Assembly (NCBI GenBank): GCA_024362935.1
Contig: JANCRA010000168.1
Span: forward strand, 496,001-560,000
Length of the DNA stretch: 64,000 nucleotides
Direction: 5' to 3'
Source: Setophaga petechia
Lineage: Eukaryota; Chordata; Aves; Passeriformes; Parulidae
Translations under genes and position numbers: made by a program
Notes under the pieces: generated by a model
Databases searched by the model: none
What the model was told of the DNA's origin: nothing
What the model saw: only the letters and a program-made list of their open reading frames with translations
Part shown: piece after piece, positions 6,300-64,000 of the stretch
Numbering within the stretch: position 1 is the first letter of the stretch
How the letters are laid out: each line of letters opens with the position of its first letter

Positions 6300-7308
<1,009 letters not shown>

Positions 7309-14870: not shown

Positions 14871-15043
14871 TGGGCACCCGGCTCCACAGCTCAGCTGGCA
14901 GAAGGGCTCCGGGCAGGCAGCAGCGGGCACACAGGCATCCCACTCTTGCAGCCCCCATTTAGAATGGGGCTTCTGGGGGCAAGCTGGAGGAATCTGGGCA
15001 TGTCCAGCCTTTCTCCTCCTTCTTCTTGGCCTCCATCTTCTTC

Positions 15044-15330
15044 TGTGATGCTGGCACTTTTAGATTGGTTTAGAGTAGAAGCTCACTGTCTAACATAGAT
15101 GATAGGTATTGGAAAGTAATTGTAAATATTGTACACGTAGTTGTTTTTAGTATAAAAGATAACACCGCCCCAGGGCAGGCAGAGTGCCTTAGACTGTCTT
15201 GCTAAGCAGACCTTGGCAGGACAGGAGAAAGAATTTTATAGACGCGATACAATAAACAACCTTGAGATGCAGAAATCAAGAGCTCTGGCTCCTTCTTTGA
15301 CCGCCGGGCTGGGAAAAGAGACTTTCTAAC
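15044..15330 (+). mobile_element. ERV LTR in unit 1
   Basis: LTR-like segment starting TGTGATGCTGGCACTTTTAG. TATAAAA at 15151-15157, AATAAA at 15251-15256, then the R/U5-like stretch with GGCTCCTTCTTTG and GGGCTGGGAAAAGAGAC. It resembles songbird ERVK-type LTRs as I recall them. No internal genes lie beside it. Terminal CA and target duplication are not clear, so edges are approximate. It has the same orientation as the MROH-like gene about 1.4 kb downstream. Confidence 0.7.
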
Positions 15331-16739
15331 TTCTCTCGTGGTCACTCTGACCAGCTAGAGACCCCAAGAGCATGAGTCCGTAAGACAAAATATTGAAGAA
15401 TTGGCTCCAAAACATAAATATCCTTGTTGGCCGTGTCTTCTTGGCCAATAAATCCTTCAAAGCTCTTGTAACTACAAGTCTTGTGGCCCTGTGAACCATG
15501 CGGTGGAGATGTGAGCCAAACTCACCCTTCCTGTCTATGTGGAGGAGAAGAAAAAGCAATGGCATCATCTAAAAAACTCAGAGGTCCGCTCTCTAGCTCG
15601 TTCCAACTCCTTCAACTCCCTCCAAGTGTCATTTAGCTACAAATAGATGACAAGGACTCTTAGTGCTGGCTCTTTGACTCCAGAGCAGCTGCTTTAGAAT
15701 CTTTCATATAAGCCTGTCTAGTTGTGTGCCAGAAATGTATCATTTTAAGAAACGTTCCCAACTGACTTGAATGGAGGGAGGCTCGTTTGAAGGGTGCTTG
15801 AGGAGAAAGGCTCCTGGAAGAGATCTGGGCTTTGGCCTAGCTGTGTCCCCTGCTGATTGTGAAGTGTGCCATCAGCTGCAGGGCTTTGTGGGCTAAAAAC
15901 ATCATCGAGTCACTTGGACTTGCTCTTTTTTGCCTATAGAAGCTGGACCCACTTTCAGGGCAAATTTGGAGACCTCATCCATGGGTGGACGGACCACCTA
16001 GGACTTTCCAACTGCTGGGAATGGTTTTCTAGGTCTCTGGTGTAAAAGGGGCTGCCCAGCAACTGTGGATCTGTAAGATGGTAATTGCCTTGGTTTGAAA
16101 AGAGAGATGTCTGCTCAGGAAAGCAGAAGCCTTGTCTGAAATGGAAAATGTAAATCCCCTCCCTTCAAATGATTCTCATGTAGAAATTCAAATGCTCTCG
16201 GGGTAAGATATGGGGATAGGACTGAGCCCGCAGAGCCAGGCGGTGTTTGCTGATGGTCTGAGCCCTTCCTAAAGATCCTGTCAGGCTGGCTTAGACACCT
16301 GGGGCCAGGGATTCCTTCCAGCCTGGGCCACTCTGGCTGGGCTGGGGGCGGCCCCAGGGCAGGAGGCAGTGTGTGCAAGGGCCCTGGATGTCACGCTGCA
16401 GCACGGTCAGCGTGCCATGGAACGGAACCCGGTGTCCAAGGCCCCTTTGTGACACGTGGGAAATAGAAGCTTGCCCGGGTGCTGGCAACACGCAAGGGGG
16501 CACAACGGGACAGAGTGGTGCCGTGAGGAGCCCCCGCACAGTGCACTCGCTCCCGTCTGACCCGGAGCTTCTCTGTGCCATTGTTCCTGCAGCTGAGCTC
16601 GAGGCCTGAGCACAGCACTCGGTGACCCGTGGCCTTCCCAGGCTTCTCTTCTTCAGCTGCCCTCAAGGGCAGAGAGTGGCACTTGGTGCCCCAGAGCTTT
16701 CCCAAGGCATCTCCCCTGCAAGTAGCTCCAGGCACAGAC

Positions 16740-19700
16740 ATGGAGCAGAGACCCCCGAGAGTGCCCAAGCTGGCCTGGGTGCAGGAGGAGGAGGAGGAGG
16801 AGGAAGAAGGCCCTGCAGCTGCCCCGGCACAGGAGACTGATGAGGTGGTGCCATTCCATCCACCGCAAGAGGGTGAGTGGCAGAGCTGGGCCGCAGGGCT
16901 GGAGCCTGCAGCCAACTTGGCCCCATGCCTTGCCACGCCATGCCATGCCATGCCATGCCATGCCATGCCCTGGGGAAATACCCACGGACAGGATGGAAGT
17001 GGGGCCGGGCAGACACCCCGCAGGGGCCGTGCTCCGGGGCTCTCCCTGCCTGGGCAGCGCAGGGCTGGCCTGTGTTCTCCGGCCTCTGCCGCAGCCCCTC
17101 AGCTCTGGCTGCACTCGCTCTTTGCCAGATGCAGCCCTGGAGCGCACACAAGAGCAGGAGTCCAGCCGTGGCCGCTTCCGCAGCACAGCACAGGTACCTG
17201 CAGCCACCCCCACCTGGGCTGGGCCTGCTGTCCCTGCTCAGCCCGGCACCGTGTGTGCAGCACTCCATGCAACATCCCCGGCTTCCTGCCCTTCTCCTAC
17301 AGCTCGTTTGCGACTTCATCAGGAGCATTCGGCAGGAAGAGACCAGCACCATGGGCACTGGGCTCAGAGCTCACTCCGAGCTCCTCCATCATGAGACCAG
17401 TGCCGCCCTGCTGGATTTGCTCCTGGAGAAGGGTGTTGCCAGGCCACAACAAGTGAGCAGCCTGGGGCCGGGCTTCAATTTCCCCATGAGTCCTGTGGCT
17501 TCCCCAGCCACGCCTGCTGGTCCCTGGGAGCCTCTGAGGCCATGGCAGCGCACTGGCAAGGGAAGCACTTCTCTGGGGACCCTGGGGACATTGCTCCCTC
17601 TGGCAGCTTTCCAAGTCTCCCCGTGCCTTCTCCAGGTGCCCGCCATGGTGAGGTTCATCCATCAATGGCTCACGGCCGATGATTCTGCCGAGCACAGGCT
17701 GGACAAGGCCCTGCTGAATCTCACCAGAGCACAGCCGGGTGACGCAGTCGTGACGCTCCTGCGTGTGGCCCCGTCCTGTGACAGGTATGGGACCCACGTG
17801 CCCAGAGGGCTCACGCCTCCCCAGCCCGTCAGCCTGACCACCTGGCCCAGGTGTGTGACCAACAGAGAGTTCCAGGGCCCTCTGGCTGCTGCCTTCCCCA
17901 GCCCTGGCACGTCAGCCCCCCAGCCTGCTGCCATGCTCCCTTGCCGCCCCTCAGGGCTCTCTCCTCACAGGGCTGGGCTGCCTGGCTGCTGCTGGCAAGG
18001 GCCAGTGGGCAGAGGCAGCGCCGGCAGTCAGCCCGGGCCCCCAGGGATGCCCAGGCCACAGTGCCGTGTCTGAGACCCCCCTGAGACATAGCTCTAACCC
18101 CGCAGAGCTGCCATCGCCATGTGGAAGACCATCATGTGCTCGTCCAGGACTGCGGAGCCGGCGCTGCTGATCCTCCTGGATGTGCTGGGGAGCTGGCCAG
18201 AGCACAGCACATGCACCTCCGATGGGGACAAAACGGGTGTCTTTGGCCTGGCTGTGAGTTTCTGCAAGTGGCCTTTGCTGGTCCCAAGGCCGCCTCCCAG
18301 CAGCTCTCCATCCTCCTTCCCCCACTGCCTCTCCCTGCCTCAGGTGCTGGCCTGAAACCTGGCCCAGTAGCAGCTCCAGGCCCACCAGGCCCTGTGCTCC
18401 CCCGGCCAAGGTCTCTGCGGGCCTCTCCCTGCCACGCTCGGGCCCTGCCACACGGACACCTGGGCACTGAGCGCTGTCTCGAGGGGCTTTGTCCTTTGCA
18501 GGCAACTGTGGTGATGTGGAAGATCCTTCAGGAGCCCCATGTCCTACGTGCAGTGAGGCCGTATTTCCCCCGCCTATTTGTGCATCTGCTCTTCCAAGTG
18601 TTCTTCAGCACAGAAGAGACGCCAGAGGAGTTCGAAACCTTCTGGAAGGAATGCCTGGAAGAGCATGGCCTTACCACCAGCCCCAACAGGTGCTCCATGC
18701 CACTCCCCATGTCCCTGCCACGTGGCATGCAAAGGAGCCAGTGCTGCAGTGTGACCTGGGCTTTGCTGCGCACACAGGTTTGCATTGCAGACCCTGAAGT
18801 CCCTGCTCTGCCAAAAGCAGTACAAGGATGTGGTGGTGTCAGTGGAACGCAAGCGTGGCTGGGACACGCTGCTCTGTGCTGACACCCGCCACTACGCCGC
18901 GGGTCTGCTGGCCAGGTGAGACTCCCTTTCTCCCCCTTGCTCCCAGCATTTGTGCCCTGTGCCCGGGCTGTCCCACACAGTCCCTGTGGCCCTGGGACAC
19001 AGGGCCTTATCACTGAGGGACGGCCAAGCAGACTGGAAAAGGCTGGGAGGGGAGAGAGCACAGCAGAAGACACCTCCCAAAGGGCCCAGGTCCCCTTGCA
19101 GGATGGTGGTGAAAGACCACCAGGCTCTGTGAGCCTGTCCTTGGAGAGGTTTGCTCAGGTTCCTGGTCCCTTTTCCGGCCTCCTAGGGAGATGCGCCGTG
19201 CTTGTCTTCGGTTGTGTTCCAGTATTGCACTCCACCTCCTCCGGCTGCTCAGCACACAGGAGCCACACTGGGATCTGCCCGCCCTGGCGTTCCTTGTGGA
19301 GGTGAGCCGGGTGTCCAGCGCTGCCTGGCTGAGCTGCCTCCCAGCTCTCTGCCCTCTCGTCGCCGCAGCCGCCTGGGACGGTGCCTGCGCCCTGTGCGGC
19401 TGCTGCTGCTGCTGCTGCTGCCTGGGCCCGGCCCTGTGCGGCTCCGGGCTCCTGCCGGCCGGCTCCCCCGTCACAGCCCCCTCCTGTGCCTTTCAGGTCC
19501 TCGAGTGCCTGGATTCCAGTGAATGTGGTGACAGTGTTGTGCAGGTCTCTTCAAGGTACCTGCAGAGCGAGTGCAGGGAGAGGCGTCGCCTGGCGCTCAG
19601 GGCCCTTCTCGAGCTCATTGGTGATCCCTCAATGGTGAGAAGGGGGCGGTGGCTGAAGCTGCGCTGGGAACGCAGTCACTTGGTCTTGCCTGGGCTTCGG

Positions 19701-21821
19701 GCGCTGGGGCAGCTGCTTCCAGCTCTCCTGCTTCCTGCTTCAGCTGCCCAAGTGCTTCGGGACAGGCCTTTGGCCTCTGGGCCCTGCAGCAGCAGGGTGG
19801 CGTTTCACAGACTTGTGTTCCGCACAGGCCGAAAGAATGTGGAGCCTGACCAAAAGCCTCATGGACCTACTGTGGGACAACGATGCAGAGATAGTTGGGA
19901 TGACACTCATCACACTCAGCTTTATATTCCTGCACAAACACATGCTGATGTCAACCCCCATTGCCCTGCAGCTGGCTGAGGCGCTCCTGCAACTCTTTGA
20001 CCACGTAAGGCTCTGTGCCCCCAGCCACAGCCACTGGGTGCTGCCTGGAAACTGTGTGCCCTGTGCATTTCCAGCCTGTGCCCAGGTGGGCCTGGAGGAG
20101 CCAATGCTGAGGTATTTTTTCCTTTTTTTTCATCTAGGATAATAGCCAGGTACGGCTGCTCTCCATAAAACTCTTCCGAGACATGATGGAGTACTTGGAA
20201 GACAGAGAAAAACCTTTGGAAAGCCCTGTGCAACAGAGCCTGCTTCCATTCTTCTTGCACTGCAATGACGAGAATCAGCGTGTGGCAGAGGTGAGGACTT
20301 GTGGGCTGCTGCTGTCCCCCTGGCAGGGGGCTCGGCTGCCTCCTGCCCTGTGCCTGCTGCACTGCAGCCACCTCCAGGCCTTGGCAAGGGGACGCGGGTC
20401 CCGTGCCCTGGGCTGTGGGGCCATCTCCACGTCTCTGCTGCTCTCCAGGCTTCTCAGGAAACGCTGCTTTGTGCGGTCAAGTTCCTGAAGAGGAGGGATC
20501 TCAAAAAGCTGGTGAAGGAGCAGAAATTGTGGAAGTTCAGCAAGCACCTGGTAAGGAGGAGCGAGAAGCCCCAGCCTCAGGCTGGAAAAGGCCCCTGAGA
20601 GCGGTGCTAAAGTGTGCGGGGCTGGCAGCTGTGCCCCTGCCCGCTGCTGCTGCAGCCAGAGGCCGCGGGGGCTCTTCTCCAGGCTCCCGTGGGCCCGAGC
20701 CGGGTGCCCATGGAGCCCGGCCCGGCGGGGCTGCGGGGCGGCACCGCGGCTCCCCGGGCAGCAGCCGGCCCGCTGCCCCCTCCCCTCGGGAGCCCTTGGC
20801 CAGCGGCTGCTGGCCGCGCCTCAGGGCTGTGCGGCAGGGGAGGCCGGGGCTGGGCGCAGGCAGCGCCCGGCCCAGGGGCTGAGCCCGGGCCAACCCTTCC
20901 CTCCTGCCGCTCTCCGCAGCTGGCAGAGGACAGGAGCCGAGCGGCCGAGCACCTGCGCCAGGCCCTGCGCTACCTGGAGAGCCCACAGGAGCCCCTGCGA
21001 GAGGCGGCCATCACGTTCATGGGTGAGCCACGAGCCCCAGCTCCCTCCTCGGCCCGCCGCAGCTCGGCCCCGGCCCCGCCTGCTGCCCCGGCAGCGCCAG
21101 CCGGGCCCGGCGCCGTGGAGCCCCGCCTGGCCTGGCCATTGCTGCTGCCGCCCTCTGGCAGCCGCGTCCTGGGCCGGCAGCGTGCGGCAAGGGCCGGGCT
21201 GAGCCCTGCCGGGCCAGCAGCCTGTGTGGCCACAGCGCCGGCAGCGCCGCTGGCAGGGAGCTGTGCCGCTGGGGCCGTGACAGGCTCTGTGTTCACAGGG
21301 ATGGCCGGGCGGCACCTGACGGGGCAGCGGCAAGAGCTGCAGCTGATCTGCGCTGGTGAGCGAGGGCAGCGGACTGACAGCGCGGGCTGACAGCGCGGGG
21401 AGAGCTGCAAGCCCTGCCCCGGCTGCGAAGGGCTCTGCTCCCGGGGACAGAGCACACTGAGCTTTCCGGGCCATTGGTGGCCAGCAGCTTCGGGCTGATC
21501 CCCTTGCTCCCTGCTCCCTCCTGGCCATGGCAAGAACCGGCTGGGATGACCCCGGCAGGGGGCTCTCCTCGGCTCCCCACAGATCCGGCTCTGACCGTGG
21601 CTCTGTTCCTCTCTCTTGCAGCCCTTGAAGACAAAACAAATGACATCAGCCTCGCCGTCGGAAGCCTGGCAATTCAAACACTGTGCATCCTCAAGTCAGG
21701 AGAGCGGGCTCCCATCTCCAGGTTCCAGTGGCTCCAAAATCACCTGCGCAGGGCATGGAAGACACGGCCTCGTCTCTCACGGCTCGGCTGCCTGCCCTGT
21801 CGGAGCTCCGTGGAGAGCTGA
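16740..21821 (+). CDS. Maestro heat-like repeat (MROH) family protein, copy 1, 15 exons
   Basis: Coding exons: 16740-16872, 17129-17193, 17303-17452, 17636-17784, 18106-18253, 18502-18689, 18778-18915, 19187-19301, 19497-19634, 19828-20004, 20138-20290, 20449-20550, 20920-21022, 21299-21355, 21622-21821. All introns are GT/AG and the frame is open for 671 residues. The ATG has G at -3 and +4, and an in-frame TGA lies upstream at 16623. An acidic N-terminus (eight Glu at 16-23) is followed by helical, Leu-rich HEAT-like repeats, for example [12 protein letters not shown] (117 on), [16 protein letters not shown] (near 225-240), [12 protein letters not shown] (278-289) and [17 protein letters not shown] (near 468-484). 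There is no signal peptide or membrane segment. HEAT repeats make scaffold solenoids; the biochemical role of this family is poorly known. Variant residues: Arg62, Ala319, Thr584. Upstream noncoding exons are possible but unproven. Confidence 0.85.
16951..16970. repeat. Variable ATGCC pentanucleotide repeat in intron 1 (unit 1 copy)
   Basis: A run of ATGCC after ACGCC around 16940-16970. Copy number by unit is 6, 5, 5, 6, 8, 8. The other copies lie near 24980, 33052, 41117, 49168 and 57229. Confidence 0.9.
19399..19420. repeat. Variable CTG trinucleotide repeat in intron 8 (unit 1 copy)
   Basis: Run of CTG inside the intron between exons 8 and 9. Copy number by unit is 7, 9, 9, 7, 7, 7. It is intronic in the spliced model, so the poly-Leu, poly-Cys and poly-Gln frames across it are not expected to be translated. 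Confidence 0.9.
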
Positions 21822-23084
21822 AGCCAGAAGCTCTTTTTGCTGGGGCTACCTAAGTCTGGAGGGATTTTCTTTAACATCAAGAACGTTCTTTTCCGTTTTT
21901 GGTTTTCTTTTAAGATGTAAATATAAACCTTGTTATATACACAGATTCCCAGGATCGATGTTTTGCTGCCCAGAGTCCACAGGGCATAGGGGAGGAGGTG
22001 CTGCTTATGCCCAGCCAGCTGCCCAGGCGTGCAGTGGGCAAAGGGGAAATGGCCGGAAGCCCCTTGGTCTGTGGTGGTTCAGCTGAAGCCTTTGTGCTGC
22101 CCATAGAGCGGCTGGGCAGGGGCCGGAGCTGCGAGGATCCCTGCCAGAGCGGTGGCTGGAGATGGCCACAAGCCCTGTGCCAGGCAGGAAGCGCCATCTG
22201 TGTCCTCCTGCCCGTGTGCTGCTGGCTGCCTTGCTGAGGGCTCCCAGGTGCCCCTGGATGGGGCTGCTCTGGAGCTGCTGTGGGGCTGCGGCGCTGCTGC
22301 CAGGCAGCTTGGCCGGGCTGGGGCAGAGCCTGAGGGGCTGGGGCGCTGGCAAGCCCTGAGCAATGGGCTCAAAGAGGCCACAAGCAGCCCCGTGGCAACC
22401 GCCTTGTTCCTGCCAGAGTTGACTTGCAAGAGGGATCCTGGGCACTCTGCAACAGCATCAGTGTTGTCGGAAACCCAAATGCAGGGAAATCTCAGACCTT
22501 TGGTCTTGTCCACAAAGCTCAGAATTGAACACAGGATTTGTTCTGACACCTTGGAAAGGGCTTCCAAACTTAGGTGGTAGAAGCGAGAATGCGGATTTCA
22601 AGTTGATAGCAGAGACACGGGGAGGAAAGTTGAAGTGGAGGAAAAGTTTAGAGTTTTAGAGTTCAAGATCTAGAAGAAAATTGAAGTAGTTGCAATGGTA
22701 AACAAGAAGTTGAGGATGCAGTGCTGTAGGTTTGTGTGTCATGACTGGCTAAGGAAGCTTACAGCTTACACTGCAGCATGCTGTGGGAACCCAGGAAATT
22801 CCTCTGGCTGCCTTCCAGGACTCGAGACCCTTTAAGAGGGCTCAGAGGCCTTGGCACAGAGCCCAAGACCCCCGTGCCTTTGATTTAGCCCTTGGAAAAA
22901 AACAATTACCAACCTCGTATGAAGAATGACAAGCCACAAAAGTTTAAATAGAATAACAGTGAATTTATCACAGAGTGGAAAAACAGATTTTTGGGGTTTT
23001 TAGAATGGGGCTTCTGGGGGCAAGCTGGAGGAATCTGGGCATGTCCAGCCTTTCTCCTCCTTCTTCTTGGCCTCCATCTTCTTC

Positions 23085-23371
23085 TGTGATGCTGGCACTT
23101 TTAGATTGGTTTAGAGTAGAAGCTCACTGTCTAACATAGATGATAGGTATTGGAAAGTAATTGTAAATATTGTACACGTAGTTGTTTTTAGTATAAAAGA
23201 TAACACCGCCCCAGGGCAGGCAGAGTGCCTTAGACTGTCTTGCTAAGCAGACCTTGGCAGGACAGGAGAAAGAATTTTATAGACGCGATACAATAAACAA
23301 CCTTGAGATGCAGAAATCAAGAGCTCTGGCTCCTTCTTTGACCGCCGGGCTGGGAAAAGAGACTTTCTAAC
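23085..23371 (+). mobile_element. ERV LTR in unit 2
   Basis: Same LTR as at 15044-15330. TATAAAA at 23192 and AATAAA at 23292. This AATAAA is the first canonical signal downstream of the copy 1 stop codon. Confidence 0.7.
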
Positions 23372-24780
23372 TTCTCTCGTGGTCACTCTGACCAGCTAGA
23401 GACCCCAAGAGCATGAGTCCGTAAGACAAAATATTGAAGAATTGGCTCCAAAACATAAATATCCTTGTTGGCCGTGTCTTCTTGGCCAATAAATCCTTCA
23501 AAGCTCTTGTAACTACAAGTCTTGTGGCCCTGTGAACCATGCGGTGGAGATGTGAGCCAAACTCACCCTTCCTGTCTATGTGGAGGAGAAGAAAAAGCAA
23601 TGGCATCATCTAAAAAACTCAGAGGTCCGCTCTCTAGCTCGTTCCAACTCCTTCAACTCCCTCCAAGTGTCATTTAGCTACAAATAGATGACAAGGACTC
23701 TTAGTGCTGGCTCTTTGACTCCAGAGCAGCTGCTTTAGAATCTTTCATATAAGCCTGTCTAGTTGTGTGCCAGAAATGTATCATTTTAAGAAACGTTCCC
23801 AACTGACTTGAATGGAGGGAGGCTCGTTTGAAGGGTGCTTGAGGAGAAAGGCTCCTGGAAGAGATCTGGGCTTTGGCCTAGCTGTGTCCCCTGCTGATTG
23901 TGAAGTGTGCCATCAGCTGCAGGGCTTTGTGGGCTAAAAACATCATCGAGTCACTTGGACTTGCTCTTTTTTGCCTATAGAAGCTGGACCCACTTTCAGG
24001 GCAAATTTGGAGACCTCATCCATGGGTGGACGGACCACCTAGGACTTTCCAACTGCTGGGAATGGTTTTCTAGGTCTCTGGTGTAAAAGGGGCTGCCCAG
24101 CAACTGTGGATCTGTAAGATGGTAATTGCCTTGGTTTGAAAAGAGAGATGTCTGCTCAGGAAAGCAGAAGCCTTGTCTGAAATGGAAAATGTAAATCCCC
24201 TCCCTTCAAATGATTCTCATGTAGAAATTCAAATGCTCTCGGGGTAAGATATGGGGATAGGACTGAGCCCGCAGAGCCAGGCGGTGTTTGCTGATGGTCT
24301 GAGCCCTTCCTAAAGATCCTGTCAGGCTGGCTTAGACACCTGAGGCCAGGGATTCCTTCCAGCCTGGGCCACTCTGGCTGGGCTGGGGGCGGCCCCAGGG
24401 CAGGAGGCAGTGTGTGCAAGGGCCCTGGATGTCACGCTGCAGCACGGTCAGCGTGCCATGGAACGGAACCCGGTGTCCAAGGCCCCTTTGTGACACGTGG
24501 GAAATAGAAGCTTGCCCGGGTGCTGGCAACACGCAAGGGGGCACAACGGGACAGAGTGGTGCCGTGAGGAGCCCCCGCACAGTGCACTCGCTCCCGTCTG
24601 ACCCGGAGCTTCTCTGTGCCATTGTTCCTGCAGCTGAGCTCGAGGCCTGAGCACAGCACTCGGTGACCCGTGGCCTTCCCAGGCTTCTCTTCTTCAGCTG
24701 CCCTCAAGGGCAGAGAGTGGCACTTGGTGCCCCAGAGCTTTCCCAAGGCATCTCCCCTGCAAGTAGCTCCAGGCACAGAC

Positions 24781-27700
24781 ATGGAGCAGAGACCCCCGAG
24801 AGTGCCCAAGCTGGCCTGGGTGCAGGAGGAGGAGGAGGAGGAGGAAGAAGGCCCTGCAGCTGCCCCGGCACAGGAGACTGATGAGGTGGTGCCATTCCAT
24901 CCACCGCAAGAGGGTGAGTGGCAGAGCTGGGCCGCAGGGCTGGAGCCTGCAGCCAACTTGGCCCCATGCCTTGCCACGCCATGCCATGCCATGCCATGCC
25001 ATGCCCTGGGGAAATACCCACGGACAGGATGGAAGTGGGGCCGGGCAGACACCCCGCAGGGGCCGTGCTCCATCCCCCTGGGGCATCCCGGGGCTCTCCC
25101 TGCCTGGGCAGCGCAGGGCTGGCCTGTGTTCTCCGGCCTCTGCCGCAGCCCCTCAGCTCTGGCTGCACTCGCTCTTTGCCAGATGCAGCCCTGGAGCGCA
25201 CACAAGAGCAGGAGTCCAGCCGTGGCCGCTTCCACAGCACAGCACAGGTACCTGCAGCCACCCCCACCTGGGCTGGGCCTGCTGTCCCTGCTCAGCCCGG
25301 CACCGTGTGTGCAGCACTCCATGCAACATCCCCGGCTTCCTGCCCTTCTCCTACAGCTCGTTTGCGACTTCATCAGGAGCATTCGGCAGGAAGAGACCAG
25401 CACCATGGGCACTGGGCTCAGAGCTCACTCCGAGCTCCTCCATCATGAGACCAGTGCCGCCCTGCTGGATTTGCTCCTGGAGAAGGGTGTTGCCAGGCCA
25501 CAACAAGTGAGCAGCCTGGGGCCGGGCTTCAATTTCCCCATGAGTCCTGTGGCTTCCCCAGCCACGCCTGCTGGTCCCTGGGAGCCTCTGAGGCCATGGC
25601 AGCGCACTGGCAAGGGAAGCACTTCTCTGGGGACCCTGGGGACATTGCTCCCTCTGGCAGCTTTCCAAGTCTCCCCGTGCCTTCTCCAGGTGCCCGCCAT
25701 GGTGAGGTTCATCCATCAATGGCTCACGGCCGATGATTCTGCCGAGCACAGGCTGGACAAGGCCCTGCTGAATCTCACCAGAGCACAGCCGGGTGACGCA
25801 GTCGTGACGCTCCTGCGTGTGGCCCCGTCCTGTGACAGGTATGGGACCCACGTGCCCAGAGGGCTCACGCCTCCCCAGCCCGTCAGCCTGACCACCTGGC
25901 CCAGGTGTGTGACCAACAGAGAGTTCCAGGGCCCTCTGGCTGCTGCCTTCCCCAGCCCTGGCACGTCAGCCCCCCAGCCTGCTGCCATGCTCCCTTGCCG
26001 CCCCTCAGGGCTCTCTCCTCACAGGGCTGGGCTGCCTGGCTGCTGCTGGCAAGGGCCAGTGGGCAGAGGCAGCGCCGGCAGTCAGCCCGGGCCCCCAGGG
26101 ATGCCCAGGCCACAGTGCCGTGTCTGAGACCCCCCTGAGACATAGCTCTAACCCCGCAGAGCTGCCATCGCCATGTGGAAGACCATCATGTGCTCGTCCA
26201 GGACTGCGGAGCCGGCGCTGCTGATCCTCCTGGATGTGCTGGGGAGCTGGCCAGAGCACAGCACATGCACCTCCGATGGGGACAAAACGGGTGTCTTTGG
26301 CCTGGCTGTGAGTTTCTGCAAGTGGCCTTTGCTGGTCCCAAGGCCGCCTCCCAGCAGCTCTCCATCCTCCTTCCCCCACTGCCTCTCCCTGCCTCAGGTG
26401 CTGGCCTGAAACCTGGCCCAGTAGCAGCTCCAGGCCCACCAGGCCCTGTGCTCCCCCGGCCAAGGTCTCTGCGGGCCTCTCCCTGCCACGCTCGGGCCCT
26501 GCCACACGGACACCTGGGCACTGAGCGCTGTCTCGAGGGGCTTTGTCCTTTGCAGGCAACTGTGGTGATGTGGAAGATCCTTCAGGAGCCCCATGTCCTA
26601 CGTGCAGTGAGGCCGTATTTCCCCCGCCTATTTGTGCATCTGCTCTTCCAAGTGTTCTTCAGCACAGAAGAGACGCCAGAGGAGTTCGAAACCTTCTGGA
26701 AGGAATGCCTGGAAGAGCATGGCCTTACCACCAGCCCCAACAGGTGCTCCATGCCACTCCCCATGTCCCTGCCACGTGGCATGCAAAGGAGCCAGTGCTG
26801 CAGTGTGACCTGGGCTTTGCTGCGCACACAGGTTTGCATTGCAGACCCTGAAGTCCCTGCTCTGCCAAAAGCAGTACAAGGATGTGGTGGTGTCAGTGGA
26901 ACGCAAGCGTGGCTGGGACACGCTGCTCTGTGCTGACACCCGCCACTACGCCGCGGGTCTGCTGGCCAGGTGAGACTCCCTTTCTCCCCCTTGCTCCCAG
27001 CATTTGTGCCCTGTGCCCGGGCTGTCCCACACAGTCCCTGTGGCCCTGGGACACAGGGCCTTATCACTGAGGGACGGCCAAGCAGACTGGAAAAGGCTGG
27101 GAGGGGAGAGAGCACAGCAGAAGACACCTCCCAAAGGGCCCAGGTCCCCTTGCAGGATGGTGGTGAAAGACCACCAGGCTCTGTGAGCCTGTCCTTGGAG
27201 AGGTTTGCTCAGGTTCCTGGTCCCTTTTCCGGCCTCCTAGGGAGATGCGCCGTGCTTGTCTTCGGTTGTGTTCCAGTATTGCACTCCACCTCCTCCGGCT
27301 GCTCAGCACACAGGAGCCACACTGGGATCTGCCCGCCCTGGCGTTCCTTGTGGAGGTGAGCCGGGTGTCCAGCGCTGCCTGGCTGAGCTGCCTCCCAGCT
27401 CTCTGCCCTCTCGTCGCCGCAGCCGCCTGGGACGGTGCCTGCGCCCTGTGCGGCTGCTGCTGCTGCTGCTGCTGCTGCTGCCTGGGCCCGGCCCTGTGCG
27501 GCTCCGGGCTCCTGCCGGCCGGCTCCCCCGTCACAGCCCCCTCCTGTGCCTTTCAGGTCCTCGAGTGCCTGGATTCCAGTGAATGTGGTGACAGTGTTGT
27601 GCAGGTCTCTTCAAGGTACCTGCAGAGCGAGTGCAGGGAGAGGCGTCGCCTGGCGCTCAGGGCCCTTCTCGAGCTCATTGGTGATCCCTCAATGGTGAGA

Positions 27701-29881: not shown

Positions 29882-31154
29882 AGCCAGAAGCTCTTTTTGC
29901 TGGGGCCACCTAAGTCTGGAGGGATTTTCTTTAACATCAAGAACGTTCTTTTCCGTTTTTGGTTTTCTTTTACGATGTAAATATAGACCTTGTTATATAC
30001 ACAGATTCCCAGGATCGATGTTTTGCTGCCCAGAGTCCACAGGGCATAGGGGAGGAGGGGGAAAAGGGTGCTGCTTATGCCCAGCCAGCTGCCCAGGCGT
30101 GCAGTGGGCAAAGGGGAAATGGCCGGAAGCCCCTTGGTCTGTGGTGGTTCAGCTGAAGCCTTTGTGCTGCCCATAGAGCGGCTGGGCAGGGGCCGGAGCT
30201 GCGAGGATCCCTGCCAGAGCGGTGGCTGGAGATGGCCACAAGCCCTGTGCCAGGCAGGAAGCGCCATCTGTGTCCTCCTGCCCGTGTGCTGCTGGCTGCC
30301 TTGCTGAGGGCTCCCAGGTGCCCCTGGATGGGGCTGCTCTGGAGCTGCTGTGGGGCTGCGGCGCTGCTGCCAGGCAGCTTGGCCGGGCTGGGGCAGAGCC
30401 TGAGGGGCTGGGGCGCTGGCAAGCCCTGAGCAATGGGCTCAAAGAGGCCACAAGCAGCCCCGTGGCAACCGCCTTGTTCCTGCCAGAGTTGACTTGCAAG
30501 AGGGATCCTGGGCACTCTGCAACAGCATCAGTGTTGTCGGAAACCCAAATGCAGGGAAATCTCAGACCTTTGGTCTTGTCCACAAAGCTCAGAATTGAAC
30601 ACAGGATTTGTTCTGACACCTTGGAAAGGGCTTCCAAACTTAGGTGGTAGAAGCGAGAATGCGGATTTCAAGTTGATAGCAGAGACACGGGGAGGAAAGT
30701 TGAAGTGGAGGAAAAGTTTAGAGTTTTAGAGTTCAAGATCTAGAAGAAAATTGAAGTAGTTGCAATGGTAAACAAGAAGTTGAGGATGCAGTGCTGTAGG
30801 TTTGTGTGTCATGACTGGCTAAGGAAGCTTACAGCTTACACTGCAGCATGCTGTGGGAACCCAGGAAATTCCTCTGGCTGCCTTCCAGGACTCGAGACCC
30901 TTTAAGAGGGCTCAGAGGCCTTGGCACAGAGCCCAAGACCCCCGTGCCTTTGATTTAGCCCTTGGAAAAAAACAATTACCAACCTCGTATGAAGAATGAC
31001 AAGCCACAAAAGTTTAAATAGAATAACAGTGAATTTATCACAGAGTGGAAAAACAGATTTTTGGGGTTTTTAGAATGGGGCTTCTGGGGGCAAGCTGGAG
31101 GAATCTGGGCATGTCCAGCCTTTCTCCTCCTCCTTCTTGGCCTCCATCTTCTTC

Positions 31155-54060: not shown

Positions 54061-55333
54061 AGCCAGAAGCTCTTTTTGCTGGGGCCACCTAAGTCTGGAG
54101 GGATTTTCTTTAACATCAAGAACGTTCTTTTCCGTTTTTGGTTTTCTTTTACGATGTAAATATAGACCTTGTTATATACACAGATTCCCAGGATCGATGT
54201 TTTGCTGCCCAGAGTCCACAGGGCATAGGGGAGGAGGGGGAAAAGGGTGCTGCTTATGCCCAGCCAGCTGCCCAGGCGTGCAGTGGGCAAAGGGGAAATG
54301 GCCGGAAGCCCCTTGGTCTGTGGTGGTTCAGCTGAAGCCTTTGTGCTGCCCATAGAGCGGCTGGGCAGGGGCCGGAGCTGCGAGGATCCCTGCCAGAGCG
54401 GTGGCTGGAGATGGCCACAAGCCCTGTGCCAGGCAGGAAGCGCCATCTGTGTCCTCCTGCCCGTGTGCTGCTGGCTGCCTTGCTGAGGGCTCCCAGGTGC
54501 CCCTGGATGGGGCTGCTCTGGAGCTGCTGTGGGGCTGCGGCGCTGCTGCCAGGCAGCTTGGCCGGGCTGGGGCAGAGCCTGAGGGGCTGGGGCGCTGGCA
54601 AGCCCTGAGCAATGGGCTCAAAGAGGCCACAAGCAGCCCCGTGGCAACCGCCTTGTTCCTGCCAGAGTTGACTTGCAAGAGGGATCCTGGGCACTCTGCA
54701 ACAGCATCAGTGTTGTCGGAAACCCAAATGCAGGGAAATCTCAGACCTTTGGTCTTGTCCACAAAGCTCAGAATTGAACACAGGATTTGTTCTGACACCT
54801 TGGAAAGGGCTTCCAAACTTAGGTGGTAGAAGCGAGAATGCGGATTTCAAGTTGATAGCAGAGACACGGGGAGGAAAGTTGAAGTGGAGGAAAAGTTTAG
54901 AGTTTTAGAGTTCAAGATCTAGAAGAAAATTGAAGTAGTTGCAATGGTAAACAAGAAGTTGAGGATGCAGTGCTGTAGGTTTGTGTGTCATGACTGGCTA
55001 AGGAAGCTTACAGCTTACACTGCAGCATGCTGTGGGAACCCAGGAAATTCCTCTGGCTGCCTTCCAGGACTCGAGACCCTTTAAGAGGGCTCAGAGGCCT
55101 TGGCACAGAGCCCAAGACCCCCGTGCCTTTGATTTAGCCCTTGGAAAAAAACAATTACCAACCTCGTATGAAGAATGACAAGCCACAAAAGTTTAAATAG
55201 AATAACAGTGAATTTATCACAGAGTGGAAAAACAGATTTTTGGGGTTTTTAGAATGGGGCTTCTGGGGGCAAGCTGGAGGAATCTGGGCATGTCCAGCCT
55301 TTCTCCTCCTTCTTCTTGGCCTCCATCTTCTTC

Positions 55334-55620
55334 TGTGATGCTGGCACTTTTAGATTGGTTTAGAGTAGAAGCTCACTGTCTAACATAGATGATAGGTATT
55401 GGAAAGTAATTGTAAATATTGTACACGTAGTTGTTTTTAGTATAAAAGATAACACCGCCCCAGGGCAGGCAGAGTGCCTTAGACTGTCTTGCTAAGCAGA
55501 CCTTGGCAGGACAGGAGAAAGAATTTTATAGACGCGATACAATAAACAACCTTGAGATGCAGAAATCAAGAGCTCTGGCTCCTTCTTTGACCGCCGGGCT
55601 GGGAAAAGAGACTTTCTAAC
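55334..55620 (+). mobile_element. ERV LTR in unit 6
   Basis: TATAAAA at 55441, AATAAA at 55541. Same structure as in the other units. Confidence 0.7.
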
Positions 55621-57029
55621 TTCTCTCGTGGTCACTCTGACCAGCTAGAGACCCCAAGAGCATGAGTCCGTAAGACAAAATATTGAAGAATTGGCTCCAA
55701 AACATAAATATCCTTGTTGGCCGTGTCTTCTTGGCCAATAAATCCTTCAAAGCTCTTGTAACTACAAGTCTTGTGGCCCTGTGAACCATGCGGTGGAGAT
55801 GTGAGCCAAACTCACCCTTCCTGTCTATGTGGAGGAGAAGAAAAAGCAATGGCATCATCTAAAAAACTCAGAGGTCCGCTCTCTAGCTCGTTCCAACTCC
55901 TTCAACTCCCTCCAAGTGTCATTTAGCTACAAATAGATGACAAGGACTCTTAGTGCTGGCTCTTTGACTCCAGAGCAGCTGCTTTAGAATCTTTCATATA
56001 AGCCTGTCTAGTTGTGTGCCAGAAATGTATCATTTTAAGAAACGTTCCCAACTGACTTGAATGGAGGGAGGCTCATTTGAAGGGTGCTTGAGGAGAAAGG
56101 CTCCTGGAAGAGATCTGGGCTTTGGCCTAGCTGTGTCCCCTGCTGATTGTGAAGTGTGCCATCAGCTGCAGGGCTTTGTGGGCTAAAAACATCATCGAGT
56201 CACTTGGACTTGCTCTTTTTTGCCTATAGAAGCTGGACCCACTTTCAGGGCAAATTTGGAGACCTCATCCATGGGTGGACGGACCACCTAGGACTTTCCA
56301 ACTGCTGGGAATGGTTTTCTAGGTCTCTGGTGTAAAAGGGGCTGCCCAGCAACTGTGGATCTGTAAGATGGTAATTGCCTTGGTTTGAAAAGAGAGATGT
56401 CTGCTCAGGAAAGCAGAAGCCTTGTCTGAAATGGAAAATGTAAATCCCCTCCCTTCAAATGATTCTCATGTAGAAATTCAAATGCTCTCGGGGTAAGATA
56501 TGGGGATAGGACTGAGCCCGCAGAGCCAGGCGGTGTTTGCTGATGGTCTGAGCCCTTCCTAAAGATCCTGTCAGGCTGGCTTAGACACCTGGGGCCAGGG
56601 ATTCCTTCCAGCCTGGGCCACTCTGGCTGGGCTGGGGGCGGCCCCAGGGCAGGAGGCAGTGTGTGCAAGGGCCCTGGATGTCACGCTGCAGCACGGTCAG
56701 CGTGCCATGGAACGGAACCCGGTGTCCAAGGCCCCTTTGTGACACGTGGGAAATAGAAGCTTGCCCGGGTGCTGGCAACACGCTAGGGGGCACAACGGGA
56801 CAGAGTGGTGCCGTGAGGAGCCCCCGCACAGTGCACTCGCTCCCGTCTGACCCGGAGCTTCTCTGTGCCATTGTTCCTGCAGCTGAGCTCGAGGCCTGAG
56901 CACAGCACTCGGTGACCCGTGGCCTTCCCAGGCTTCTCTTCTTCAGCTGCCCTCAAGGGCAGAGAGTGGCACTTGGTGCCCCAGAGCTTTCCCAAGGCAT
57001 CTCCCCTGCAAGTAGCTCCAGGCACAGAC

Positions 57030-60000
57030 ATGGAGCAGAGACCCCCGAGAGTGCCCAAGCTGGCCTGGGTGCAGGAGGAGGAGGAGGAGGAGGAAGAAGG
57101 CCCTGCAGCTGCCCCGGCACAGGAGACTGATGAGGTGGTGCCATTCCATCCACCGCAAGAGGGTGAGTGGCAGAGCTGGGCCGCAGGGCTGGAGCCTGCA
57201 GCCAACTTGGCCCCATGCCTTGCCACGCCATGCCATGCCATGCCATGCCATGCCATGCCATGCCATGCCCTGGGGAAATACCCACGGACAGGATGGAAGT
57301 GGGGCCGGGCAGACACCCCGCAGGGGCCGTGCTCCGGGGCTCTCCCTGCCTGGGCAGCGCAGGGCTGGCCTGTGTTCTCCGGCCTCTGCCGCAGCCCCTC
57401 AGCTCTGGCTGCACTCGCTCTTTGCCAGATGCAGCCCTGGAGCGCACACAAGAGCAGGAGTCCAGCCGTGGCCGCTTCCGCAGCACAGCACAGGTACCTG
57501 CAGCCACCCCCACCTGGGCTGGGCCTGCTGTCCCTGCTCAGCCCGGCACCGTGTGTGCAGCACTCCATGCAACATCCCCGGCTTCCTGCCCTTCTCCTAC
57601 AGCTCGTTTGCGACTTCATCAGGAGCATTCGGCAGGAAGAGACCAGCACCATGGGCACTGGGCTCAGAGCTCACTCCGAGCTCCTCCATCATGAGACCAG
57701 TGCCGCCCTGCTGGATTTGCTCCTGGAGAAGGGTGTTGCCAGGCCACAACAAGTGAGCAGCCTGGGGCCGGGCTTCAATTTCCCCATGAGTCCTGTGGCT
57801 TCCCCAGCCACGCCTGCTGGTCCCTGGGAGCCTCTGAGGCCATGGCAGCGCACTGGCAAGGGAAGCACTTCTCTGGGGACCCTGGGGACATTGCTCCCTC
57901 TGGCAGCTTTCCAAGTCTCCCCGTGCCTTCTCCAGGTGCCCGCCATGGTGAGGTTCATCCATCAATGGCTCACGGCCGATGATTCTGCCGAGCACAGGCT
58001 GGACAAGGCCCTGCTGAATCTCACCAGAGCACAGCCGGGTGACGCAGTCGTGACGCTCCTGCGTGTGGCCCCGTCCTGTGACAGGTATGGGACCCACCTG
58101 CCCAGAGGGCTCACGCCTCCCCAGCCCGTCAGCCTGACCACCTGGCCCAGGTGTGTGACCAACAGAGAGTTCCAGGGCCCTCTGGCTGCTGCCTTCCCCA
58201 GCCCTGGCACGTCAGCCCCCCAGCCTGCTGCCATGCTCCCTTGCCGCCCCTCAGGGCTCTCTCCTCACAGGGCTGGGCTGCCTGGCTGCTGCTGGCAAGG
58301 GCCAGTGGGCAGAGGCAGCGCCGGCAGTCAGCCCGGGCCCCCAGGGATGCCCAGGCCACAGTGCCGTGTCTGAGACCCCCCTGAGACATAGCTCTAACCC
58401 CGCAGAGCTGCCATCGCCATGTGGAAGACCATCATGTGCTCGTCCAGGACTGCGGAGCCGGCGCTGCTGATCCTCCTGGATGTGCTGGGGAGCTGGCCAG
58501 AGCACAGCACATGCACCTCCGATGGGGACAAAACGGGTGTCTTTGGCCTGGCTGTGAGTTTCTGCAAGTGGCCTTTGCTGGTCCCAAGGCCGCCTCCCAG
58601 CAGCTCTCCATCCTCCTTCCCCCACTGCCTCTCCCTGCCTCAGGTGCTGGCCTGAAACCTGGCCCAGTAGCAGCTCCAGGCCCACCAGGCCCTGTGCTCC
58701 CCCGGCCAAGGTCTCTGCGGGCCTCTCCCTGCCACGCTCGGGCCCTGCCACACGGACACCTGGGCACTGAGCGCTGTCTCGAGGGGCTTTGTCCTTTGCA
58801 GGCAACTGTGGTGATGTGGAAGATCCTTCAGGAGCCCCATGTCCTACGTGCAGTGAGGCCGTATTTCCCCCGCCTATTTGTGCATCTGCTCTTCCAAGTG
58901 TTCTTCAGCACAGAAGAGACGCCAGAGGAGTTCGAAACCTTCTGGAAGGAATGCCTGGAAGAGCATGGCCTTACCACCAGCCCCAACAGGTGCTCCATGC
59001 CACTCCCCATGTCCCTGCCACGTGGCATGCAAAGGAGCCAGTGCTGCAGTGTGACCTGGGCTTTGCTGCGCACACAGGTTTGCATTGCAGACCCTGAAGT
59101 CCCTGCTCTGCCAAAAGCAGTACAAGGATGTGGTGGTGTCAGTGGAACGCAAGCGTGGCTGGGACACGCTGCTCTGTGCTGACACCCGCCACTACGCCGC
59201 GGGTCTGCTGGCCAGGTGAGACTCCCTTTCTCCCCCTTGCTCCCAGCATTTGTGCCCTGTGCCCGGGCTGTCCCACACAGTCCCTGTGGCCCTGGGACAC
59301 AGGGCCTTATCACTGAGGGACGGCCAAGCAGACTGGAAAAGGCTGGGAGGGGAGAGAGCACAGCAGAAGACACCTCCCAAAGGGCCCAGGTCCCCTTGCA
59401 GGATGGTGGTGAAAGACCACCAGGCTCTGTGAGCCTGTCCTTGGAGAGGTTTGCTCAGGTTCCTGGTCCCTTTTCCGGCCTCCTAGGGAGATGCGCCGTG
59501 CTTGTCTTCGGTTGTGTTCCAGTATTGCACTCCACCTCCTCCGGCTGCTCAGCACACAGGAGCCACACTGGGATCTGCCCGCCCTGGCGTTCCTTGTGGA
59601 GGTGAGCCGGGTGTCCAGCGCTGCCTGGCTGAGCTGCCTCCCAGCTCTCTGCCCTCTCGTCGCCGCAGCCGCCTGGGACGGTGCCTGCGCCCTGTGCGGC
59701 TGCTGCTGCTGCTGCTGCTGCCTGGGCCCGGCCCTGTGCGGCTCCGGGCTCCTGCCGGCCGGCTCCCCCGTCACAGCCCCCTCCTGTGCCTTTCAGGTCC
59801 TCGAGTGCCTGGATTCCAGTGAATGTGGTGACAGTGTTGTGCAGGTCTCTTCAAGGTACCTGCAGAGCGAGTGCAGGGAGAGGCGTCGCCTGGCGCTCAG
59901 GGCCCTTCTCGAGCTCATTGGTGATCCCTCAATGGTGAGAAGGGGGCGGTGGCTGAAGCTGCGCTGGGAACGCAGTCACTTGGTCTTGCCTGGGCTTCGG

Positions 60001-62121
60001 GCGCTGGGGCAGCTGCTTCCAGCTCTCCTGCTTCCTGCTTCAGCTGCCCAAGTGCTTCGGGACAGGCCTTTGGCCTCTGGGCCCTGCAGCAGCAGGGTGG
60101 CGTTTCACAGACTTGTGTTCCGCACAGGCCGAAAGAATGTGGAGCCTGACCAAAAGCCTCATGGACCTACTGTGGGACAACGATGCAGAGATAGTTGGGA
60201 TGACACTCATCACACTCAGCTTTATATTCCTGCACAAACACATGCTGATGTCAACCCCCATTGCCCTGCAGCTGGCTGAGGCGCTCCTGCAACTCTTTGA
60301 CCACGTAAGGCTCTGTGCCCCCAGCCACAGCCACTGGGTGCTGCCTGGAAACTGTGTGCCCTGTGCATTTCCAGCCTGTGCCCAGGTGGGCCTGGAGGAG
60401 CCAATGCTGAGGTATTTTTTCCTTTTTTTTCATCTAGGATAATAGCCAGGTACGGCTGCTCTCCATAAAACTCTTCCGAGACATGATGGAGTACTTGGAA
60501 GACAGAGAAAAACCTTTGGAAAGCCCTGTGCAACAGAGCCTGCTTCCATTCTTCTTGCACTGCAATGACGAGAATCAGCGTGTGGCAGAGGTGAGGACTT
60601 GTGGGCTGCTGCTGTCCCCCTGGCAGGGGGCTCGGCTGCCTCCTGCCCTGTGCCTGCTGCACTGCAGCCACCTCCAGGCCTTGGCAAGGGGACGCGGGTC
60701 CCGTGCCCTGGGCTGTGGGGCCATCTCCACGTCTCTGCTGCTCTCCAGGCTTCTCAGGAAACGCTGCTTTGTGCGGTCAAGTTCCTGAAGAGGAGGGATC
60801 TCAAAAAGCTGGTGAAGGAGCAGAAATTGTGGAAGTTCAGCAAGCACCTGGTAAGGAGGAGCGAGAAGCCCCAGCCTCAGGCTGGAAAAGGCCCCTGAGA
60901 GCGGTGCTAAAGTGTGCGGGGCTGGCAGCTGTGCCCCTGCCCGCTGCTGCTGCAGCCAGAGGCCGCGGGGGCTCTTCTCCAGGCTCCCGTGGGCCCGAGC
61001 CGGGTGCCCATGGAGCCCGGCCCGGCGGGGCTGCGGGGCGGCACCGCGGCTCCCCGGGCAGCAGCCGGCCCGCTGCCCCCTCCCCTCGGGAGCCCTTGGC
61101 CAGCGGCTGCTGGCCGCGCCTCAGGGCTGTGCGGCAGGGGAGGCCGGGGCTGGGCGCAGGCAGCGCCCGGCCCAGGGGCTGAGCCCGGGCCAACCCTTCC
61201 CTCCTGCCGCTCTCCGCAGCTGGCAGAGGACAGGAGCCGAGCGGCCGAGCACCTGCGCCAGGCCCTGCGCTACCTGGAGAGCCCACAGGAGCCCCTGCGA
61301 GAGGCGGCCATCACGTTCATGGGTGAGCCACGAGCCCGAGCTCCCTCCTCGGCCCGCCGCAGCTCGGCCCCGGCCCCGCCTGCTGCCCCGGCAGCGCCAG
61401 CCGGGCCCGGCGCCGTGGAGCCCCGCCTGGCCTGGCCATTGCTGCTGCCGCCCTCTGGCAGCCGCGTCCTGGGCCGGCAGCGTGCGGCAAGGGCCGGGCT
61501 GAGCCCTGCCGGGCCAGCAGCCTGTGTGGCCACAGCGCCGGCAGCGCCGCTGGCAGGGAGCTGTGCCGCTGGGGCCGTGACAGGCTCTGTGTTCACAGGG
61601 ATGGCCGGGCGGCACCTGACGGGGCAGCGGCAAGAGCTGCAGCTGATCTGCGCTGGTGAGCGAGGGCAGCGGACTGACAGCGCGGGCTGACAGCGCGGGG
61701 AGAGCTGCAAGCCCTGCCCCGGCTGCGAAGGGCTCTGCTCCCGGGGACAGAGCACACTGAGCTTTCCGGGCCATTGGTGGCCAGCAGCTTCGGGCTGATC
61801 CCCTTGCTCCCTGCTCCCTCCTGGCCATGGCAAGAACCGGCTGGGATGACCCCGGCAGGGGGCTCTCCTCGGCTCCCCACAGATCCGGCTCTGACCGTGG
61901 CTCTGTTCCTCTCTCTTGCAGCCCTTGAAGACAAAACAAATGACATCAGCCTCGCCGTCGGAAGCCTGGCAATTCAAACACTGTGCATCCTCAAGTCAGG
62001 AGAGCGGGCTCCCATCTCCAGGTTCCAGTGGCTCCAAAATCACCTGCGCAGGGCATGGAAGACACGGCCTCGTCTCTCACGGCTCGGCTGCCTGCCCTGT
62101 CGGAGCTCCGTGGAGAGCTGA
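57030..62121 (+). CDS. MROH family protein, copy 6, 15 exons
   Basis: Exons: 57030-57162, 57429-57493, 57603-57752, 57936-58084, 58406-58553, 58802-58989, 59078-59215, 59487-59601, 59797-59934, 60128-60304, 60438-60590, 60749-60850, 61220-61322, 61599-61655, 61922-62121. 671 residues, open. Arg62, Ala319, Thr584. By my reading its predicted protein is identical to that of copy 1 at the far end of the array, while its immediate neighbour copy 5 differs at residue 584. Confidence 0.85.
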
Positions 62122-63311
62122 AGCCAGAAGCTCTTTTTGCTGGGGCCACCTAAGTCTGGAGGGATTTTCTTTAACATCAAGAACGTTCTTTTCCGTTTTT
62201 GGTTTTCTTTTACGATGTAAATATAGACCTTGTTATATACACAGATTCCCAGGATCGATGTTTTGCTGCCCAGAGTCCACAGGGCATAGGGGAGGAGGGG
62301 GAAAAGGGTGCTGCTTATGCCCAGCCAGCTGCCCAGGCGTGCAGTGGGCAAAGGGGAAATGGCCGGAAGCCCCTTGGTCTGTGGTGGTTCAGCTGAAGCC
62401 TTTGTGCTGCCCATAGAGCGGCTGGGCAGGGGCCGGAGCTGCGAGGATCCCTGCCAGAGCGGTGGCTGGAGATGGCCACAAGCCCTGTGCCAGGCAGGAA
62501 GCGCCATCTGTGTCCTCCTGCCCGTGTGCTGCTGGCTGCCTTGCTGAGGGCTCCCAGGTGCCCCTGGATGGGGCTGCTCTGGAGCTGCTGTGGGGCTGCG
62601 GCGCTGCTGCCAGGCAGCTTGGCCGGGCTGGGGCAGAGCCTGAGGGGCTGGGGCGCTGGCAAGCCCTGAGCAATGGGCTCAAAGAGGCCACAAGCAGCCC
62701 CGTGGCAACCGCCTTGTTCCTGCCAGAGTTGACTTGCAAGAGGGATCCTGGGCACTCTGCAACAGCATCAGTGTTGTCGGAAACCCAAATGCAGGGAAAT
62801 CTCAGACCTTTGGTCTTGTCCACAAAGCTCAGAATTGAACACAGGATTTGTTCTGACACCTTGGAAAGGGCTTCCAAACTTAGGTGGTAGAAGCGAGAAT
62901 GCGGATTTCAAGTTGATAGCAGAGACACGGGGAGGAAAGTTGAAGTGGAGGAAAAGTTTAGAGTTTTAGAGTTCAAGATCTAGAAGAAAATTGAAGTAGT
63001 TGCAATGGTAAACAAGAAGTTGAGGATGCAGTGCTGTAGGTTTGTGTGTCATGACTGGCTAAGGAAGCTTACAGCTTACACTGCAGCATGCTGTGGGAAC
63101 CCAGGAAATTCCTCTGGCTGCCTTCCAGGACTCGAGACCCTTTAAGAGGGCTCAGAGGCCTTGGCACAGAGCCCAAGACCCCCGTGCCTTTGATTTAGCC
63201 CTTGGAAAAAAACAATTACCAACCTCGTATGAAGAATGACAAGCCACAAAAGTTTAAATAGAATAACAGTGAATTTATCACAGAGTGGAAAAACAGATTT
63301 TTGGGGTTTTT

Positions 63312-64000
63312 AGAATGGGGCTTCTGGGGGCAAGCTGGAGGAATCTGGGCATGTCCAGCCTTTCTCCTCCTTCTTCTTGGCCTCCATCTTCTTCTGTGAT
63401 GCTGGCACTTTTAGATTGGTTTAGAGTAGAAGCTCACTGTCTAACATAGATGATAGGTATTGGAAAGTAATTGTAAATATTGTACACGTAGTTGTTTTTA
63501 GTATAAAAGATAACACCGCCCCAGGGCAGGCAGAGTGCCTTAGACTGTCTTGCTAAGCAGACCTTGGCAGGACAGGAGAAAGAATTTTATAGACGCGATA
63601 CAATAAACAACCTTGAGATGCAGAAATCAAGAGCTCTGGCTCCTTCTTTGACCGCCGGGCTGGGAAAAGAGACTTTCTAACTTCTCTCGTGGTCACTCTG
63701 ACCAGCTAGAGACCCCAAGAGCATGAGTCCGTAAGACAAAATATTGAAGAATTGGCTCCAAAACATAAATATCCTTGTTGGCCGTGTCTTCTTGGCCAAT
63801 AAATCCTTCAAAGCTCTTGTAACTACAAGTCTTGTGGCCCTGTGAACCATGCGGTGGAGATGTGAGCCAAACTCACCCTTCCTGTCTATGTGGAGGAGAA
63901 GAAAAAGCAATGGCATCATCTAAAAAACTCAGAGGTCCGCTCTCTAGCTCGTTCCAACTCCTTCAACTCCCTCCAAGTGTCATTTAGCTACAAATAGATG
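63312..64000 (+). repeat. Array unit 7, partial (689 bp, cut by window end)
   Basis: Leader, LTR and the start of the spacer of a seventh unit continue to the right edge without divergence, so the array extends beyond the window. Its gene would start about 1.1 kb past the edge. Confidence 0.95.
63395..63681 (+). mobile_element. ERV LTR in unit 7
   Basis: TATAAAA at 63502, AATAAA at 63602. Same structure as in the other units. Confidence 0.7.

Follow-up and report, generated by a model that had tools for sequence, protein, structure and literature searches.

In arrays of ribosomal DNA (rDNA), amylase and defensin genes, units lie head to tail, are closer to one another than to copies outside the array, exchange sequence with each other and are most diverged at the outer unit. 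The same is seen at the locus described here, a tandem array of MROH-like (maestro HEAT-like) genes in the bird Setophaga petechia. The DNA analyzed, hereafter the window, is a stretch of 64,000 nucleotides from contig JANCRA010000168.1 (C168:496001-560000) of a 1.22-Gb genome assembly of 687 contigs (GCA_024362935.1). What sets this locus apart from those arrays is that the same genome also contains a single-copy relative with a flanking repeat on either side, and the likely starting state can therefore be read directly: one assembly holds both the likely precursor, a gene between two copies of a repeat referred to here as R, and the ten-gene product. A tandem array that is grown and homogenized by unequal exchange is of a known kind, and the added value of this locus is that its mechanism is readable. 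The array probably arose by non-allelic homologous recombination (NAHR) between the Rs that flank the gene in one copy of a larger block, repeated up to ten genes and followed by homogenization.

As a recent, lineage-specific multigene expansion, the array also resembles the expansions of PIM1-like and PAK3-like kinases in songbirds, although a different gene family is involved. MROH genes are among the families amplified in songbirds, and our literature search (titles and the beginnings of abstracts) returned no account of their mode of multiplication and no paper that takes apart a tandem MROH array or explains how one arose. In the blue tit, one study names MROH1 as one of the genes whose isoforms differ between the germline-restricted chromosome and the others (PMC10172847). 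In view of this, a germline-restricted or W chromosome was considered as a possible origin of the locus.

Anatomy of the array

The array spans C168:510958-592153, that is, from window position 14958 to what would be position 96153, and in this assembly consists of ten complete units (U1 to U10) and a final 626 bp. Six complete units lie within the window, all on the + strand: U1 at 14958-22998 (8041 bp; coding sequence (CDS) span 16740-21821, 671 codons), U2 at 22999-31068 (8070 bp; CDS span 24781-29881, 671 codons), U3 at 31069-39138 (8070 bp; CDS span 32851-37951, 671 codons), U4 at 39139-47186 (8048 bp; CDS span 40921-45999, 670 codons, with one Glu codon missing), U5 at 47187-55247 (8061 bp; CDS span 48969-54060, 671 codons) and U6 at 55248-63308 (8061 bp; CDS span 57030-62121, 671 codons). 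The first part of U7 occupies 63309-64000 on the same strand, and the array runs on past the window as U7 to U10 (8056, 8051, 8056 and 8056 bp) and the 626-bp remainder. An initial annotation, made from the window alone, had placed seven unit starts at spacings of 8041, 8070, 8070, 8048, 8061 and 8061 bp, all of which were recovered exactly. It had also described the array as leaving the window with its total copy number unknown. The flanking contig bears out the former, with four more units (the partial seventh counted) that end past the edge; as to the latter, the count can now be given for this assembly as ten plus a fragment. The array is thus confirmed as a real tandem array, with a unit count taken from the assembly alone.

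Each of the ten units carries a 15-exon gene on the + strand in which all introns are GT-AG. The exons of U1 lie at window positions 16740-16872, 17129-17193, 17303-17452, 17636-17784, 18106-18253, 18502-18689, 18778-18915, 19187-19301, 19497-19634, 19828-20004, 20138-20290, 20449-20550, 20920-21022, 21299-21355 and 21622-21821. After splicing, an open frame was obtained in 10/10 units (671 codons in nine, 670 in U4), so the intact 15-exon genes of 670-671 codons reported for the window extend to the four units ending beyond it.

Copies of R separate the genes. The leftmost R (14958-15583, + strand) lacks its first 211 bp and retains 626 bp, while the R between U1 and U2 (22788-23624, + strand) is 837 bp long and of the right-hand type defined below; its equivalents run from 211 bp before to 626 bp after each later unit junction.

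Single-copy relatives and the spacer repeat

A gene probe, for which 40 hits were scored of 1307 first-look candidates, placed related genes at 32 places with at least 94% identity; ten of these are the array, and an 8-kb tandem spacing of the hits was found only on C168. Five relatives were read (L018 to L022, on C137, C136, C162, C113 and C46), and all five consist of one gene between two direct R repeats of about 837 bp. Measured from R to R, the distance amounts to 8055 bp in C137 and to 7992-8049 bp in the other four, and this distance of about 8.0 kb equals the period of the array.

These single-copy loci belong to a larger block. A probe from the left flank of the array, for which all 37 candidates were scored, matched 11 places at 96-100% identity (C168, C137, C113, C46, C136, C69, C162, two on C119 and two on C106). 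With a probe for a 626-bp part of R (40 candidates scored of 4631 first-look), R pairs were found 8057 bp apart on C137, 7994-8051 bp apart on C113, C46, C136, C69, C162 and at C106:0.73 Mb, and 14.9 kb apart at C119:0.40 Mb. The two remaining block copies, C106:1651544 and C119:569570, each combine the left flank with a single R, spaced as expected; a gene or a second R was not found there among the 40 hits scored for each of the gene and R probes. From the match lists alone, these two loci may be candidate reciprocal products of the same exchange, in which the gene was lost by deletion.

Contig C137 is the nearest relative of the array locus and has one gene. Of about 80 kb of C137 to be compared with C168:476001-627500, 50 kb were read, and where read the two contigs were collinear except for the number of genes, the loss of 976 bp and minor differences. 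The match on the left of the array (C168:500978-510952) has 99.44% identity and that on the right (C168:592154-602559) 99.17%, the latter including what appears from its reading frames to be a retroviral insertion; C137 also matches C168 over two more stretches of 10 kb, of which the first starts at C168:476001 and the second runs up to the contig ends, which lie within about 0.4 kb of each other. Substitutions in four stretches numbered 73/9964, 54/9974, 40/10363 and 59/7179, in total 226/37,480 or 0.60%, and identity by substitutions was 99.2-99.6%.

Collinearity, the coinciding contig ends and the 0.60% difference favor the reading that C137 and C168 are two haplotypes of one bird, with one and ten gene copies. 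In contrast, the existence of eleven block copies favors a paralogue or a mosaic, as does a probe at C168:400001, for which copies at 99% are listed on C46, C136 and C162 while C137 is absent from the list (40 of 334 candidates scored). We therefore hold the haplotype reading only tentatively, as possible but short of probable. If it is true, copy number would still be segregating, as an ongoing expansion that is not fixed, and the starting state, the signatures of exchange and possible deletion products would all be found within one genome.

Because C137 crosses the locus with one unit within the same assembly, it also bears on the proposal that the number of units on C168 is inflated or false. 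The initial annotation had named such a crossing as evidence against the array; we read it as the other haplotype or a paralogue, and not as a contradiction. False duplication in assemblies usually gives two copies, and here ten units lie on one contig, all pairs of which are different, with private changes in 6/10 units and every frame intact. The left junction of the array is, moreover, absent from C137. An assembly artefact is accordingly very improbable.

The nature of R can be approached from copies outside the block. On contig C143 the order is an MROH gene with an internal loss, R (91% identity over 626 bp), 5'-side MROH sequence and the start of another MROH gene. Six further R loci were read, C143 included, and MROH 3'-side sequence precedes R in 5/6 of them and 5'-side sequence follows it in 6/6. 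Since MROH sequence lies on both sides at C143 and at most of the further loci, R is best seen as an old spacer of tandem MROH genes. A different origin was considered, in which R would be a transposable element, such as a solo long terminal repeat, and the gene was mobilized by it or flanked by chance insertions. The 4631 first-look candidates for the 626-bp part of R would fit a dispersed element, as would two more distant MROH loci (L029 and L030), in whose 10 kb no R was found. However, R at C143 has the 3' part of an MROH gene on one side and 5'-side MROH sequence on the other, MROH sequence flanks the further R loci as well, and the similarity between the block copies on C137 and C136 extends well past R. 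We set the transposable-element origin aside on account of the MROH flanks at C143 and consider it very unlikely.

The R probe also found R at about 91% in further places, contig C6 among them. Near the end of this 38-Mb contig, at C6:32.2-34.7 Mb, at least 13 R-like copies at 93% lie on one strand, about 77-478 kb apart, and this is perhaps another large MROH region.

Exchange between units and the origin of the array

The ten full units differ from each other by 1-11 substitutions in pairwise comparison, on average by 5.4 over about 8.04 kb, and no two are identical. Between array units and C137, 24-29 substitutions were counted. In a phylogenetic tree the array formed a clade (100/99) with C137 next to it, apart from the pairs C136/C162 and C113/C46. 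The difference within the array, 0.067%, is about one-ninth of the 0.60% difference between the C168 and C137 flanks, and the common ancestry of the array is therefore much younger than the split of the two contigs.

Within the array, substitutions are found at 18 biallelic sites, of which 11 are singletons. Five substitutions are exonic, of which four change a residue (R62H, A319V, T584R and R656C) and one is silent; in addition, U4 is one codon shorter. In a four-gamete test, 11 of the 21 informative site pairs were incompatible, and the difference between units grew with their separation (Spearman 0.47, permutation p 0.0002). The units are mosaics of variants held in common. The outgroup base at unit position 3943 is kept by U3 alone, and U2 and U3 retain 18 bp that every one of the five outgroup units has and that U1 and U4 to U10 lack. 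In the outer unit U1, four substitutions are private and 10 bp are lost; it is the most drifted unit, as would be expected since end units exchange less. The initial annotation had offered very recent amplification or continuing homogenization as explanations of the near-identity. Both are supported, the former by the separate clade and the gap between the means within the array and the distance to C137, the latter by the signatures of recombination between units; recent expansion was thus accompanied by continuing exchange.

The Rs carry information on how the expansion began. The two Rs of C137, left and right, can be told apart at 27 of their first 211 columns, whereas their other 626 columns are identical. 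Out-of-register exchange between the Rs of a C137-like locus would give an internal R that starts as the right type and ends as the left type. All nine internal Rs of the array were right-type at 27/27 diagnostic columns; the R at the right end was also right-type at 27/27, which is expected there by position. When the majority of the five relatives was used in place of C137, the first part of the internal Rs was right-type at 18/19 columns. An origin by NAHR is supported by this right-type beginning together with the agreement between R-to-R distance and array period, and the diagnostic bases point to exchange inside the 626-bp identical tract.

The proposed course of events would start from a 15-exon MROH gene between two direct Rs, within a block present about 11 times in the genome. 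In the C168 copy of the block, misaligned Rs would have recombined by unequal crossing-over to yield the order R-gene-R-gene-R, and repeated exchanges, presumably by meiotic or sister-chromatid crossing-over, would have raised the count to ten genes. Thereafter, gene conversion and additional unequal crossing-over would keep the units alike, with the outermost unit U1 drifting most. Each copy may be transcribed, in which case the dose of its product would rise with copy number.

Several observations weigh against this course or limit its support. The left junction (14952-14957, given without strand) is not a plain product of NAHR: 976 bp of C137 are gone from C168 at this place, among them the beginning of the left R, and about 6 unmatched bases lie at the join, so that a separate deletion or end-joining step is needed. 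In the last part of the internal Rs, comparison with the majority of the five relatives gave 5/7 columns of left type and 2/7 of right type, and the array equals C137 there; since the two Rs of C137 are identical in this part, the left-type end provides no independent test. Identical spacers would also result if the first step was replication-based or involved a circle. Copy number and unit order are taken from one assembly, and no constraint is visible on the recent variation or on individual copies, because four of the five coding substitutions alter the protein.

The circle-mediated first step can be stated more fully as amplification other than by stepwise crossing-over, in which one R and one gene were multiplied as an extrachromosomal circle by rolling-circle replication, or by break-induced replication, and inserted as a block of ten. 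This would explain why every unit has the same type of spacer, and it fits a non-homologous left junction with unmatched bases. However, the dependence of difference on separation and the mosaic units need exchange after the amplification in any case. The right flank, furthermore, continues exactly as in C137, which excludes insertion at an unrelated place and leaves re-integration at the same R. We regard amplification of this type as unlikely, and repeated NAHR between the flanking Rs as the probable origin of the array. The locus makes copy-number polymorphism, dosage and the rate of unequal exchange straightforward to test.

Gene product and neighboring features

The predicted product scored 32.5 bits for the Pfam family PF21047 (HEAT_Maestro), whose cut-off is 27.4. 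When 5.8 billion proteins were searched, 510 of the 7991 that were scored proved related at E<=0.001; the 120 matches listed are all from what we take to be passerine birds, and the first six cover 93-100% of the query. Over full-length alignments, identity was 84% to a protein of Coccothraustes (P0001) and 78% to a Vidua protein named MROH6. The domain above its cut-off and the full-length passerine matches, several of them labeled MROH6 or MROH7, bear out the earlier MROH-like assignment, and the array gene is identified as a passerine MROH gene. The numbered labels vary between sources, where matches are named MROH5, 6 or 7, maestro-like, uncharacterized, hypothetical or unnamed; with the passerine MROH6/MROH7-like multigene family, the array gene has in common PF21047 and alignment over its full length. 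In some protein clusters, many members come from a single species (61 in one Coccothraustes cluster and 37 in one Vidua cluster), so that amplified copies also exist in other passerines.

An AlphaFold2 model of P0001, the closest relative among the matches listed, rather than of the window protein itself, is almost wholly helical except for its unconfident ends (mean predicted local distance difference test score (pLDDT) 78.4, predicted template modelling score (pTM) 0.71). The 50 Foldseek matches listed for this model were mainly HEAT/ARM proteins, with low query-normalized template modelling scores of 0.21-0.31, and profile matches in solved structures were mainly to armadillo proteins, both designed and natural. 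On the basis of the helical model and these two sets of matches, the product is predicted to be an alpha-solenoid of the HEAT/ARM type, and it may serve as a binding scaffold.

Conservation of the frame was assessed in copies outside the array, 6/7 of which were intact. The locus L030, with 82% DNA identity to the array gene, has 363 coding differences, no stop and a ratio of non-synonymous to synonymous change (dN/dS) of 0.69; for L018 to L022 the ratio was 0.37-0.92, from very few changes. A simple simulation gave a chance of about 6e-6 for a frame as intact as that of L030 under random change. The MROH frame is thus kept over longer times, as random change would rarely spare it. L029 aligned with an odd length and 20 stops. 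It has a duplicated first exon, and intron sequence was drawn into its alignment, for which reason we left it out of the intact count.

Outside the array, in the shared left flank, kinase fragments lie at window positions 11900-13800 on the + strand (Pfam Pkinase, E 1.3e-6, 28.5 bits, below the cut-off of 31.7). We take these exons to be PIM1-like. In our own reading of the translated frames, HCH stands in place of HRD and NFG in place of DFG, and the fragments are possibly those of a pseudokinase. A frame with C2H2 zinc fingers was found at window positions 6326-7279, and the arms of a large inverted repeat, at 87-94% identity, occupy C168:492644-503946, which reaches window position 7946.

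A second tandem array is located at C168:3487-160392, with a period of about 7.42-7.43 kb, at least 20 copies at 99-100% identity and gaps for about two more. No Pfam match was obtained in two frames of the 1 kb of it that was read, and it is also present on C137, C252, C136, C46 and C113 (40 of 1886 candidates scored). To the right of the MROH-like array, a satellite of about 287 bp occurs at C168:603968-607101 and C168:615621-618534, with about 77-94% identity between stretches. It is split by an element with 532-bp direct repeats (96.6%), and a second element with 394-bp repeats at 99% lies at about C168:595738-603974. From their reading frames, both elements, within C168:595160-618534, appear to be endogenous retroviruses. 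The sizes of C168, C137 and C34 (627500, 1192500 and 9462500 bp) are exact multiples of 2500 bp, as if the contigs had been cut at fixed bins.

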